Part shown: positions 1,755 through 62,910 of the stretch, one piece after another
Layout of the letters: every line of letters starts with the position of its first letter
Position numbering within the stretch: the stretch's first letter is position 1
NCBI GenBank assembly: GCA_009377525.1
Contig: WHTW01000010.1
Span: forward strand, 1 to 64,000
Source of the DNA: Rhodospirillales bacterium
GTDB taxonomy: Bacteria > Pseudomonadota > Alphaproteobacteria > Reyranellales > Reyranellaceae
Direction of reading: 5' to 3'
Length of the DNA stretch: 64,000 nt
Notes under the pieces: model-generated
Databases searched by the model: none
The model's input: only the letters and a program-made list of their open reading frames with translations
What the model was told of the DNA's origin: nothing
Translations under genes and position numbers: made by a program

Positions 1755-1877
1755 CTAGAGCACCTTTCGATCGTATGGAACCGCTTGCGGTTCCATACGA
1801 TCGAAAGTGCGTTGGCTCGAACATCATGGCCGGGCACATTCCGTCCGGCTGATTTTCAGCCGGACGGAATGTGCTTA
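1755..1877. repeat. Double-hairpin repeat element, copy A1
   Basis: Two near-perfect palindromes stand side by side. Hairpin 1 (1760-1810) has arms CGATCGTATGGAACCGC and the reverse complement, with one bulged C. Hairpin 2 (1834-1874) has 19-bp arms GCACATTCCGTCCGGCTGA around a TTT loop. The element begins at a CTAG. Three further copies lie at 41829, 61337 and 62783; this copy has the order hairpin 1 then hairpin 2. It lies upstream of the phosphoesterase gene and behind the MscS remnant. Confidence 0.9.
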
Positions 1878-1898
1878 AGCCCTAACCTGCGCGGCGCT

Positions 1899-15179: not shown

Positions 15180-15218
15180 CTCCTCTCCCCCGCTAGGGGG
15201 AGAGGTTGGGTGAGGGGG
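15180..15218. repeat. Left arm of paired-arm repeat element C1
   Basis: This 39-bp arm contains a hairpin (CTCTCCCCC, loop, GGGGGAGAG) followed by GTTGGGTGAGGGGG. The mirror arm lies at 15562-15602 in opposite orientation. The DUF559 gene lies exactly between and reads into this arm, which supplies its last residues and its TAG stop. The same two arms recur at 23941-24057 with only 18 bp between them. Confidence 0.9.
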
Positions 15219-15561
15219 TTACAGGCGATCGATCGCTCAACGCGATTTCAATCGAGGCCCAGATTCCTTCGGGATTTTGCACGACCTCGTTCGCCCAGAA
15301 TCTTAGAACGCGCCAACCCTCGCGTTCCATCGCAGCCGTCCGATGCGCATCAGCTTCGACTTGAAAGGCGTGATGCTCACCGTCGATCTCGATGACGAGT
15401 TTTCTCGATACGCAGGCGAAGTCGGCGAAATACCGCCCGATCGGATGCTGTCGGCGAAACTTGACGCCGTTGATCCGTCGGTCACGGATCAGGTCCCAGC
15501 AGATCTGTTCCGCCCGACTGCCGTCGCGGCGCAGCTCGCGCGCTCTTGAGACCTTGTCCAT
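15193..15561 (-). CDS. DUF559 endonuclease-fold protein framed by repeat arms
   Basis: A 122-residue DUF559 protein, related to the very-short-patch-repair and restriction endonuclease fold. Visible motifs are RSRAEQICW-like [32 protein letters not shown] near 36-51, VIEIDGEHH near 56-64 and the late [15 protein letters not shown]. The D...E-x-D pattern fits a nuclease core, but activity has not been proved for the family. The ATG follows the right repeat arm directly, and that arm supplies a GAGGGGG ribosome-binding site. The last residues (TPSPNLSP) and the TAG stop are encoded by the left arm. It therefore behaves as a cassette inside the repeat rather than as part of a neighbouring operon. 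Confidence 0.85.
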
Positions 15562-15602
15562 GCCCCCTCACCCAACCTCTCCCCCTAGCGTGGGAGAGGA
15601 GC
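15562..15602. repeat. Right arm of paired-arm repeat element C1
   Basis: The arm reads GCCCCCTCACCCAACC followed by CTCTCCCCCTAGCGTGGGAGAG, which forms its own hairpin. It is the inverted counterpart of the arm at 15180-15218. Read on the minus strand it places GAGGGGG one base before the DUF559 start codon. Confidence 0.9.
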
Positions 15603-15630
15603 ATGAAAGAAATACAAGGCTAGATTGCGG

Positions 15631-20697: not shown

Positions 20698-20748
20698 GGA
20701 GCGCGGGCCTCCGGCCCGCTCATGATGCGGGCCGGAGGCCCGCGCTCC
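20698..20748. repeat. Perfect hairpin repeat B2 in front of livG
   Basis: Two perfect 22-bp arms (GGAGCGCGGGCCTCCGGCCC plus GC) surround a 7-base TCATGAT loop. The right arm ends one base before the ATG of the ABC ATPase gene, leaving no other leader. The purine stretch of the right arm (CCGGAGG) is the only candidate ribosome-binding site and would be hidden in the stem. Confidence 0.92.
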
Positions 20749-23940: not shown

Positions 23941-24057
23941 CTCCTCTCCCCCGCTAGGGCCCCCACGGGGGAGAGGTTGGGTGAGGGGGCATCGACAGCT
24001 CGCGCAACCCCCTCACCTAGCCTCTCCCCCTAACGGGGCCCTAACGGGGGGAGAGGA
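23941..24057. repeat. Paired-arm repeat element C2 without a gene inside
   Basis: Left arm 23941-23989 and right arm 24008-24057 are in opposite orientation and separated by 18 bp. Each arm has its own hairpin of CTCTCCCC and GGGGAGAG, followed or preceded by TGAGGGGG/CCCCCTCA. The arrangement matches the arms that enclose the DUF559 gene at 15180-15602. A short partial copy (ATGCTCCTCTCCC) precedes it at about 23922. It lies between the permease and binding-protein genes. Confidence 0.9.
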
Positions 24058-36084: not shown

Positions 36085-36138
36085 GGAGCGCGGGCCTCTG
36101 GCCCGCATTCATGAGTGCGGGCCGGAGGCCCGCGCTCC
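36085..36138. repeat. Hairpin repeat B4 in front of the 909-residue membrane protein gene
   Basis: Arms GGAGCGCGGGCCTCTGGCCC and the reverse complement of GGAGCGCGGGCCTCCGGCCC enclose an ATTCATGAGT-like loop, with a single mismatch between arms. As at 20698, the right arm ends one base before the ATG of the following gene. The left arm begins only two bases after the stop of the preceding gene. Confidence 0.92.
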
Positions 36139-41386: not shown

Positions 41387-41956
41387 ATGCGCCGGCGACT
41401 GTCCGCGCGGCTGCTGATCCTCGACGAGGCGAACCGGGTCCTGCTGTTCCGCTTCGTCTACAGGCGCGGGCCGCTCGCCGGTCAGGACTTCTGGGGAACG
41501 CCGGGCGGCGGCGTCGAGGACGGCGAGACGCTGGAGCAGGCCGCCTTGCGCGAGCTGGTCGAGGAAACCGGCTTGCGGCGCGAGAGCGTCGGCTCGGAGG
41601 TAGCCTGCCGCGAAGTCGCGCTGCAGCTGCCCGACGGCGAGCGCGTCGTGCAAGACGAGCGCTACTTCGTGGTCTGCGTCGCCGACAACGCCCTATCGAG
41701 AGACGATTGGACCGACCTGGAACGGGAGGTCATGGTCGAGCATCGCTGGTGGTCGCTCGAGGAACTGTCGCGGACCGAAGCGACGGTGTGGCCCGAGAAC
41801 CTTCGGAAAATGATAGAGGCGGCGCTCTCTAGAGCACATTCCGTTCGGCTAGAATCAGCCGAACGGAATGTGCCTGTTGCAACAACTAACCCCAGTGCGC
41901 GCGATTCCGACCAGATGGAACCGCTCGCGGTTCCATCTGATCGGAATCCGCTCTAG
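41387..41956 (+). CDS. Nudix hydrolase with repeat-derived C-terminal tail
   Basis: The protein has a Nudix box GGGVEDGETLEQAALRELVEE followed by TGL, binding metal for pyrophosphate hydrolysis. The Nudix domain proper occupies residues 1 to about 148. The last 41 residues (from [13 protein letters not shown] to PSDRNPL) are encoded entirely by the double-hairpin repeat at 41829-41956, which also supplies the TAG stop. Without the repeat the protein would presumably end nearby. It follows the PLP enzyme gene by 6 bp. The substrate is unknown; the WGTPGGGVE form is common in ADP-sugar and nucleotide hydrolases. Confidence 0.85.
   Translation: MRRRLSARLLILDEANRVLLFRFVYRRGPLAGQDFWGTPGGGVEDGETLEQAALRELVEETGLRRESVGSEVACREVALQLPDGERVVQDERYFVVCVADNALSRDDWTDLEREVMVEHRWWSLEELSRTEATVWPENLRKMIEAALSRAHSVRLESAERNVPVATTNPSARDSDQMEPLAVPSDRNPL
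41829..41956. repeat. Double-hairpin repeat element, copy A2
   Basis: The element is 128 bp with CTAG at both ends. Hairpin 2 comes first (41834-41873), with arms GCACATTCCGTTCGGCT. Hairpin 1 (41903-41948) has arms GATTCCGACCAGATGGAACC plus GC with a single C/A mismatch. Order is reversed relative to A1 and A4. Its right CTAG forms stop codons on both strands, for the Nudix gene and for the minus-strand secreted protein. Confidence 0.92.
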
Positions 41957-61250: not shown

Positions 61251-61336
61251 CATCAACCGAACCTGGGCAAGCAAAAAGGCCCAGGGAAGGCGCGGATAAT
61301 GCTTGGCGGGTCCCCTGTCAAGCAAACCGGCCCAAA

Positions 61337-61456
61337 GCACATTCCGTCCGGCTGGAATCAGCCGGACGGAATGTGCCTGTGAACGAGGCGCCTGGAACAA
61401 CGCGTTTCCAATCAGCTGGAACCGCAAGCGGTTCCAGCTGATTGGAAGCCGCTCTA
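61337..61456. repeat. Double-hairpin repeat element, copy A3
   Basis: Hairpin 2 (61337-61376) has arms GCACATTCCGTCCGGCTG, and hairpin 1 (about 61404-61449) has arms TTCCAATCAGCTGGAACCGC and its complement. The right end is GCTCTAG as in A2, but the left end lacks the CTAG. It sits between the tRNA-Ala gene and ridA and probably contains parts of both leaders. Confidence 0.9.
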
Positions 61457-62782: not shown

Positions 62783-62910
62783 TAGAGCGGTTTCCGATCA
62801 GGTGGAACCGCGAGCGGTTCCACCTGATCGGAAACGCGCGCACGGGAGATGCTTGTGTCACCGGGCACATTCCGTCCGGCTGATTCCAGCCGGACGGAAT
62901 GTGCTTCTAG
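62783..62910. repeat. Double-hairpin repeat element, copy A4
   Basis: A 128-bp element with TAGAGC on the left and CTAG on the right. Hairpin 1 (62790-62835) has perfect 22-bp arms including TTCCGATCAGGTGGAACCGC. Hairpin 2 (62865-62904) has arms GCACATTCCGTCCGGCTG around ATTC. Orientation is as in A1. It begins two bases after the stop of the FHA protein gene. Confidence 0.92.

Follow-up and report, generated by a model that had tools for sequence, protein, structure and literature searches.

The window, by which we mean the whole stretch of 64,000 nucleotides analysed from a Rhodospirillales bacterium of the family Reyranellaceae, contains four copies of an element built of two hairpins, H1 and H2, and all four were found where the first-pass annotation had placed them (1755, 41829, 61337 and 62783). 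Two copies lie on each strand, showing that the whole element occurs in either orientation. Copy 1 (1755..1879, minus strand) comprises an H2 hairpin at 1764-1807 and an H1 hairpin at 1834-1874; it reads CTTAAGC at its H1 end and its loop carries no GANTC. Copy 2, on the plus strand, has an element proper of 122 bp running from GAGC to GCTC (41832..41953), with H1 at 41834..41873, whose loop contains GAATC, and H2 at 41903..41948; its left TA (41830..41831) lies inside a CTAG at 41829-41832 and its right TA (41954..41955) inside a CTAG at 41953-41956, a duplication suggested here by the other copies. Copy 3 (61335..61454, plus strand; H1 61337-61376, H2 61406-61447) stands between a tRNA-Ala gene and a gene named by eye, which we take to be RidA-like. 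Copy 4 (62785..62907, minus strand; H2 62790-62835, H1 62865-62904) directly follows the stop codon of a called gene and is framed by a left TA at 62783..62784, compared below with the empty site of relative G020, and a right TA at 62908..62909. The window also holds C-rich palindromic repeats (CTCTCCCCC..CTAG..GGGGGAGAG) at 15193-15620 and 23954-24017, and similar repeats occur at L038 6172 and L046 16896.

Read in one orientation, the element has the order TA-GAGC...H1-linker-H2...GCTC-TA, with decayed variants present. The H1 arms are 18 bp long around a loop of mostly 4 nt, the H2 arms 22 bp around a short loop, and the linker measures 29 nt in 70 of 93 copies. In two sequences (L018 1489-1561 and L027 338-417) the H2 hairpin alone is gone while H1 and the linker are kept, a loss that slippage across a DNA hairpin would be expected to cause. 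Most ends had been described as showing CTAG; 40 of 62 parsed right ends carry it (3 of 65 rows, with ends that could not be parsed, were dropped), the left ends are more variable, and the true boundary is TA. In some copies the terminal TA is itself replaced by TG, CA or TT.

A profile search of 777,845 b of the window's own genome, consisting of the window plus 40 stretches most of which were picked around copies, returned 73 full-length copies (≥100 b), and 20 stretches of relatives yielded 24 more. A 400-kb sample selected without regard to copies contained 13, 12 of them full length, or about one per 31 kb, and we estimate that a Reyranella genome holds a few hundred copies. First-look candidates from the genome searches numbered 265 and 288, with scores for only 40 and 21 of them, and the window's own genome had the most element-copy candidates among the genomes searched. 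With one 133-base copy as query, 8 of the 24 other genomes from the genus gave a match and none of 16 from outside it did. No autonomous copy with the same hairpin ends was noticed in the first 777,845 b, among the paired hairpins and those lone hairpins that were traced. Measured against a crude gene call based on codon usage, 15 of the 85 copies share at least 60 bp with a gene, 22 share less and 48 share nothing, compared with 79.5% of random placements overlapping a gene by at least 60 bp.

Among its readings the first-pass annotation had offered a non-autonomous mobile element, and this is supported by empty orthologous sites, TA duplications and a nested copy. The protein-binding signal that it also offered may hold as well, for instance as a transposase site or a GANTC site. 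The check that it proposed, an empty site with a single CTAG, is seen for the 62783 copy in G020, which reads TGA-CTAG-GGGCGGG as against TGA-GTAG/AGCGG...CTTCTAG-GGGCGGG in the window; this site is empty in all six relatives, the junction TA being kept in only three of them (CTAG, ATAG, TTAG). At the 61337 copy, five of six relatives are empty and read CCTATGTTAG, and the sixth, G020, did not resolve; the filled site has CTAG-TGTT against CTA-TGTT in the five relatives, one G beyond the prediction of a TA duplication. For the 41829 copy, G014 is without a copy and has a shorter left flank, L093 and L097 carry other DNA at the orthologous site, and three relatives have just one flank. The sequence found at this site in L093 and L097 includes a stretch similar to GCATCGTT.ATCCGA, which is conserved in a dispersed repeat with a CATCCCGTCCGGCTG palindrome at L038 1741, L043 21 and L044 11594.

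Further sites come from own-genome copies outside the window. The clearest case is the copy at L016 13380, where five of five relatives are empty, all reading GAACTGC-C-TA-CCC, and the filled site reads C-TA/GGGC...GCTC/TA-CCC, an exact TA duplication. The target here is C-TA-C, and it is the target that sets the outer base next to H1, so that the duplication is of TA and not of CTA or CTAG. At L016 8393 six of six relatives are empty, each with one CTACT; at L050 6943 four of four are empty, with TG (three) or GC (one) where TA was expected; and at L016 9718 one relative is empty and one is occupied by a single-hairpin sequence. The nested copy (L050 9643) sits at a CTAG in the H2 apex of another copy, with 4 bp absent on one side in comparison with uninterrupted relatives such as L041 16845. 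A 4-bp CTAG duplication was considered and rejected, given an empty site CTAC whose outer bases follow the target; by eye, the left and right outer bases also seem to vary apart. The same outer bases were present on both sides as CTGG in two copies and as CCAG in one. Because the empty sites of congeners fit a 2-bp TA duplication, the boundary is set at TA rather than CTAG. The family is thus a mobile element whose target is TA, in most cases as part of CTAG, and whose insertion leaves the TA duplicated.

As a candidate for the mobilizer, we identified in relatives an IS630 subgroup with the ends CTA/GAGC...GCTC/TAG, at first in 5 of 24 loci. After a protein search, GAGC was present at both ends in 18 of 54 transposase loci, the other 36 being fragments, contig ends or members of other groups; removal of three identical copies and addition of L219 and L220 left 17 distinct IS copies. 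In all 17, a GANTC occupies precisely nt 21-25 counted from one end, with further GANTC starting at 30-34 and at 53-57; they hold three to seven GANTC in all, most within 60 nt of one end, at about 21, 33 and 56. In the seven copies checked, the transposase frame begins at the GANTC-bearing end. The left end follows CTA in 17 of 17 copies and the right end is followed by TAG in 16 of 17. The element has GANTC at the same position, nt 21-25 from the H1 end and thus in the loop, in 68 of 95 copies; these include many near relatives of one another, and 2 of the 97 copies were left out of this count. TA followed by GAGC/T has GANTC at nt 21-25 in 1 of 341 sites outside copies, compared with 32 of 101 inside copies at either end. 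Element and IS ends have GAGC and GANTC at nt 21-25 in common and are otherwise only loosely alike; the best further likeness, GAGCGGTTTC, between IS copy L238 and the H2 end of some elements, could be chance. The idea that GANTC is kept up in single copies was not supported, as the loop T varies (GAAG 6, GAAA 5, GAAC 4) more than the N.

The DDE frame of L198 scored 147.8 bits with NF033545 (IS630); its identity to Sinorhizobium proteins annotated as ISRm2011-2 family is about 60%. A copy on pSymA of S. meliloti 1021, in a record without annotation of it, has the same GAGC ends and 59.8% identity, like the annotated ones. Among three plasmid IS loci, GAGC ends were found in two (pSymA and Mesorhizobium), and the Neorhizobium locus (L221) was not resolved. 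Compared with the element, the ISRm2011-2-type IS630 has the same CTA/GAGC...GCTC/TA ends and GANTC at nt 21-25 from one end, but it is about 1050 bp long and carries transposase frames, with no paired end hairpins noticed by eye. A transposase match was obtained in 40 of 61 genomes of the genus, many of these matches being short or weak, and, against a link between the two, co-occurrence of IS and element across the genus was not found: G003, G008, G011, G015, G016 and G021 have the transposase with no copy detected, and G000, which is the window's own genome, G005 and G006 have copies with no transposase match. A limited literature search, whose silence is not proof, recognised no paper that connects the mobility of such repeats with ISRm2011-2 or GANTC.

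It is also conceivable, if unlikely, that the element is mobile through a different transposase, be it of another IS630 group, of IS5/IS427 type, or one that has been lost or lay outside our searches. In this direction points the own assembly, which is 96.7% complete and in which none of 18 scored candidates was an ISRm2011-2-type transposase; the search of the own genome covered PF01797, PF13358, PF13340 and the ISRm2011-2-type protein only. CTA is also where the own-genome IS630 copies (L121-L124) lie, with ends of a different sequence, and in four of five a GANTC is found no more than two bases away from that position; neither target choice nor an end-proximal GANTC is thus diagnostic of a single group, which slightly lowers the odds of the ISRm2011-2 type. 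Two IS427-type copies (L130, L131) apparently use CTAG or TAG, and CTAG seems to be a target common to several mobile families here. Against a different transposase speak the resolved ends of the own-genome IS copies (GTACC, GTCGCC, CCAGCC, GGTCGAAACC, GTTCTGTGG), which do not match GAGC, and the position of their GANTC, which in 0 of 5 IS630 copies is exactly at nt 21-25, four copies having it start at nt 22, 23, 23 and 19. As candidates, the seven IS630 matches were rejected with resolved ends of GTACC, GTCGCC or CCAGCC (two were without resolved ends), and so were three IS427-type matches (PF13340), the ends found for two of them not matching.

The paired stem changes noted in the first-pass annotation are real and reach far beyond the four window copies, being seen in 32 aligned copies, hand-chosen for variety, and in 90 distinct copies (97 less four with a poor hairpin and three duplicates). 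In the 32-copy alignment, 99.5% of 1278 stem cells pair, compared with a mean of 86.6% after shuffling; 23 of 40 stem pairs have changed on both sides, with 152 two-sided changed cells against 31 in shuffles, and four cells changed on one side. Across the 90 copies, the match between an arm and its own partner is 98.8% in H1 and 97.4% in H2, and it falls to 85.5% and 76.3%, respectively, when arms are swapped between copies. Reconstruction with FastTree and parsimony gave 177 pair-to-pair changes, 78 of them transversions, and 67 pair-to-mismatch changes, 66 of these on terminal branches, with no mismatch-to-pair change; these counts are rough, as the tree was built on little sequence, stems included, that may have recombined, and tie-breaking favoured paired states. 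The mismatches look like decay of resident copies, and the lineages that founded new copies appear to have stayed paired while both arms changed. Templated correction of a folded strand would be the simplest account of the paired changes, and the remark in the first-pass annotation that one arm may template the other would fit these data best.

Strong covariation of the stems and a mostly intergenic location could be expected if the hairpins were kept by selection on a transcript, such as a sRNA, a terminator or a stabiliser of mRNA ends, with the spread of copies as a by-product, and there are likenesses to Rfam families below threshold, for instance to Rhizobiales-2 (RF01723; 25.5 bits against a gathering score of 40, E=2), although most such likenesses are chance. 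The structured RNA proposed in the first-pass annotation is nevertheless not supported and is very unlikely. The mismatches in the 90 copies are even in type (G-T 23, A-C 23, other 24), with no wobble excess on the strand read, and the scarcity of one-sided changes set out above is at odds with an RNA stem, for which G-U pairs on its own strand are acceptable. Of the copies between co-directional genes, 22 share the gene orientation and 21 oppose it, and these even counts, together with the even mismatch types, indicate that no RNA strand shows. At the gathering score, the only Rfam family in the window is a tRNA, with none for the element. Stem co-variation that mimics a conserved RNA, without wobble or strand bias, is a warning for covariation-based RNA discovery.

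Least probable of all, and hardly credible, is a REP/BIME-type element that owes its mobility to a RAYT (Y1) transposase and has CTAG instead of GTAG: two hairpins do face each other as in BIME, with a tetranucleotide at the foot, and the own genome has four Y1_Tnp genes (two, checked against NCBIfam, were both named REP-associated tyrosine transposase), but all four have other palindromes with TCATGA-like centres (GGAGCGCGG.. or TCTTCCGGACCG..) as inverted copies on either side, which makes RAYT unlikely as the mobilizer, the double-hairpin family flanks none of the four, and the element has a TA duplication, which to our knowledge is not expected of Y1 transposition. The element also differs from REP/BIME in having two unlike hairpins per unit of about 122 bp. 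One of the other palindrome families (GGAGCGCGGGCCTC...GAGGCCCGCGCTCC, TCATGA-like centre) occurs in the window at 20698-20748 and 36085-36138, and relatives of it lie on both sides of the RAYT genes L009 and L010. Around L011 and L012 stands a second family, TCTTCCGGACCG..TCATGA. Both families look like the true REP/RAYT pairs of the genome. One study is concerned with GTAG- and CGTC-tagged REPs, and its text has no mention of CTAG (PMC3733652).

On balance, we favour as the probable reading a non-autonomous transposon of about 122 bp that inserts at TA, has hairpins at its ends, is moved in trans by an ISRm2011-2-type IS630 transposase and has arms that evolve as a unit. The element is MITE-like, of the CIR plan described below, with one hairpin at each end, and its insertion, mostly within CTAG, duplicates the TA, as the empty sites show. 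The action of the transposase in trans is suggested by the common ends, the common target and the common motif position, and the enzyme may recognise the terminal GAGC together with a subterminal block holding GANTC at nt 21-25. That the two arms of a hairpin evolve as one unit would most likely be due to repair or copying of a folded strand, in which one arm serves as template, and to the failure of mismatched copies to found new ones.

CIR stands for Caulobacter CcrM-associated intergenic repeats, reportedly described by Chen and Shapiro in 2003. The passages on CIR in a 2007 review depict intergenic units of alphaproteobacteria of about 110 bp, with two long inverted repeats and a linker, whose termini are TA and one of whose hairpins has GANTC at its terminal loop; they call CIR abundant in Caulobacter and related alphaproteobacteria, the role of their GANTC unknown and their mobility mechanism in need of more information (PMC2229807), and an entry in a review of MITEs likewise lists CIR as intergenic (PMC10969869). 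The element is alike in its length of about 122 bp, its two hairpins with linker, its intergenic location, its GANTC at the terminal loop of H1 and its TA termini. It occurs in another genus, and the comparison with CIR is one of plan. Given these architectural features, we place the family in the CIR-type class by architecture; the TA duplication and the mobilizer candidate are added here and are new evidence on the possible movement of that class.

Double hairpins of the same plan were found in four other genera of the class. A covariance model, applied with strict filters, gave matches in 4 of 141 other genomes of the class, one each from four other families, and all 16 of the 25 fetched matches that were read by eye had two hairpins at or near CTAG-like sites. 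GANTC stands at nt 21-25 of an end in five of nine copies in G095, in two of four in G117, in three of five in G089, two of these being near-identical, and in 0 of 7 in G127, where the ends are mostly GGGC or GCGC.

Two palindromes are likewise reported for RIME, which is said to be 108 bp long (Osteras 1995). An element at pSymB 30046 of S. meliloti, which we take to be RIME-like, has two palindromes and begins CTA/GAGCGGGATGAG; similar DNA was found at 28 places in pSymB and at least 2289 in 177 plasmid records, and it shares 10 nt of its end, GAGCGGGATG, with the pSymA IS of the same strain. Its site has one TA when empty, in Sinorhizobium sp. K101, and two TA when filled. It thus resembles our element in the CTA/GAGC start and in the TA duplication seen against an empty site, but is without GANTC at nt 21-25, and its other end begins GATC. 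A search with one window copy against plasmid records, including S. meliloti pSymB, gave no match at E≤1. The name RIME, as passages in two papers give it, denotes the Rhizobium-specific intergenic mosaic element (PMC2573895, PMC2245857). Correia/NEMIS, RUP and other small TA-flanked elements, as outlined in the 2007 review, are also small, with TA termini and target duplication, but they form one stem-loop from paired ends, whereas our element has its own hairpin at each end (PMC2229807).

A case of the same plan gives the CIR class an observed TA duplication and a testable class of mobilizer, and the positional match of GANTC between element and IS may explain the link of CIR repeats with CcrM. 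Dam licenses IS10 transposition. We raise tentatively, as a possibility that is itself rather doubtful, that GANTC at nt 21-25 is a control or binding site common to ISRm2011-2-type IS630 and CIR, with licensing by CcrM, pickup of single-stranded DNA and repair that copies arms. Hemimethylation of CcrM sites behind the replication fork would then permit transposition, folded single-stranded DNA would be picked up, and repair would copy one arm onto the other. If true, this would account together for the CcrM sites in alphaproteobacterial repeats, for their movement and for a stem co-variation that is nearly free of wobble.
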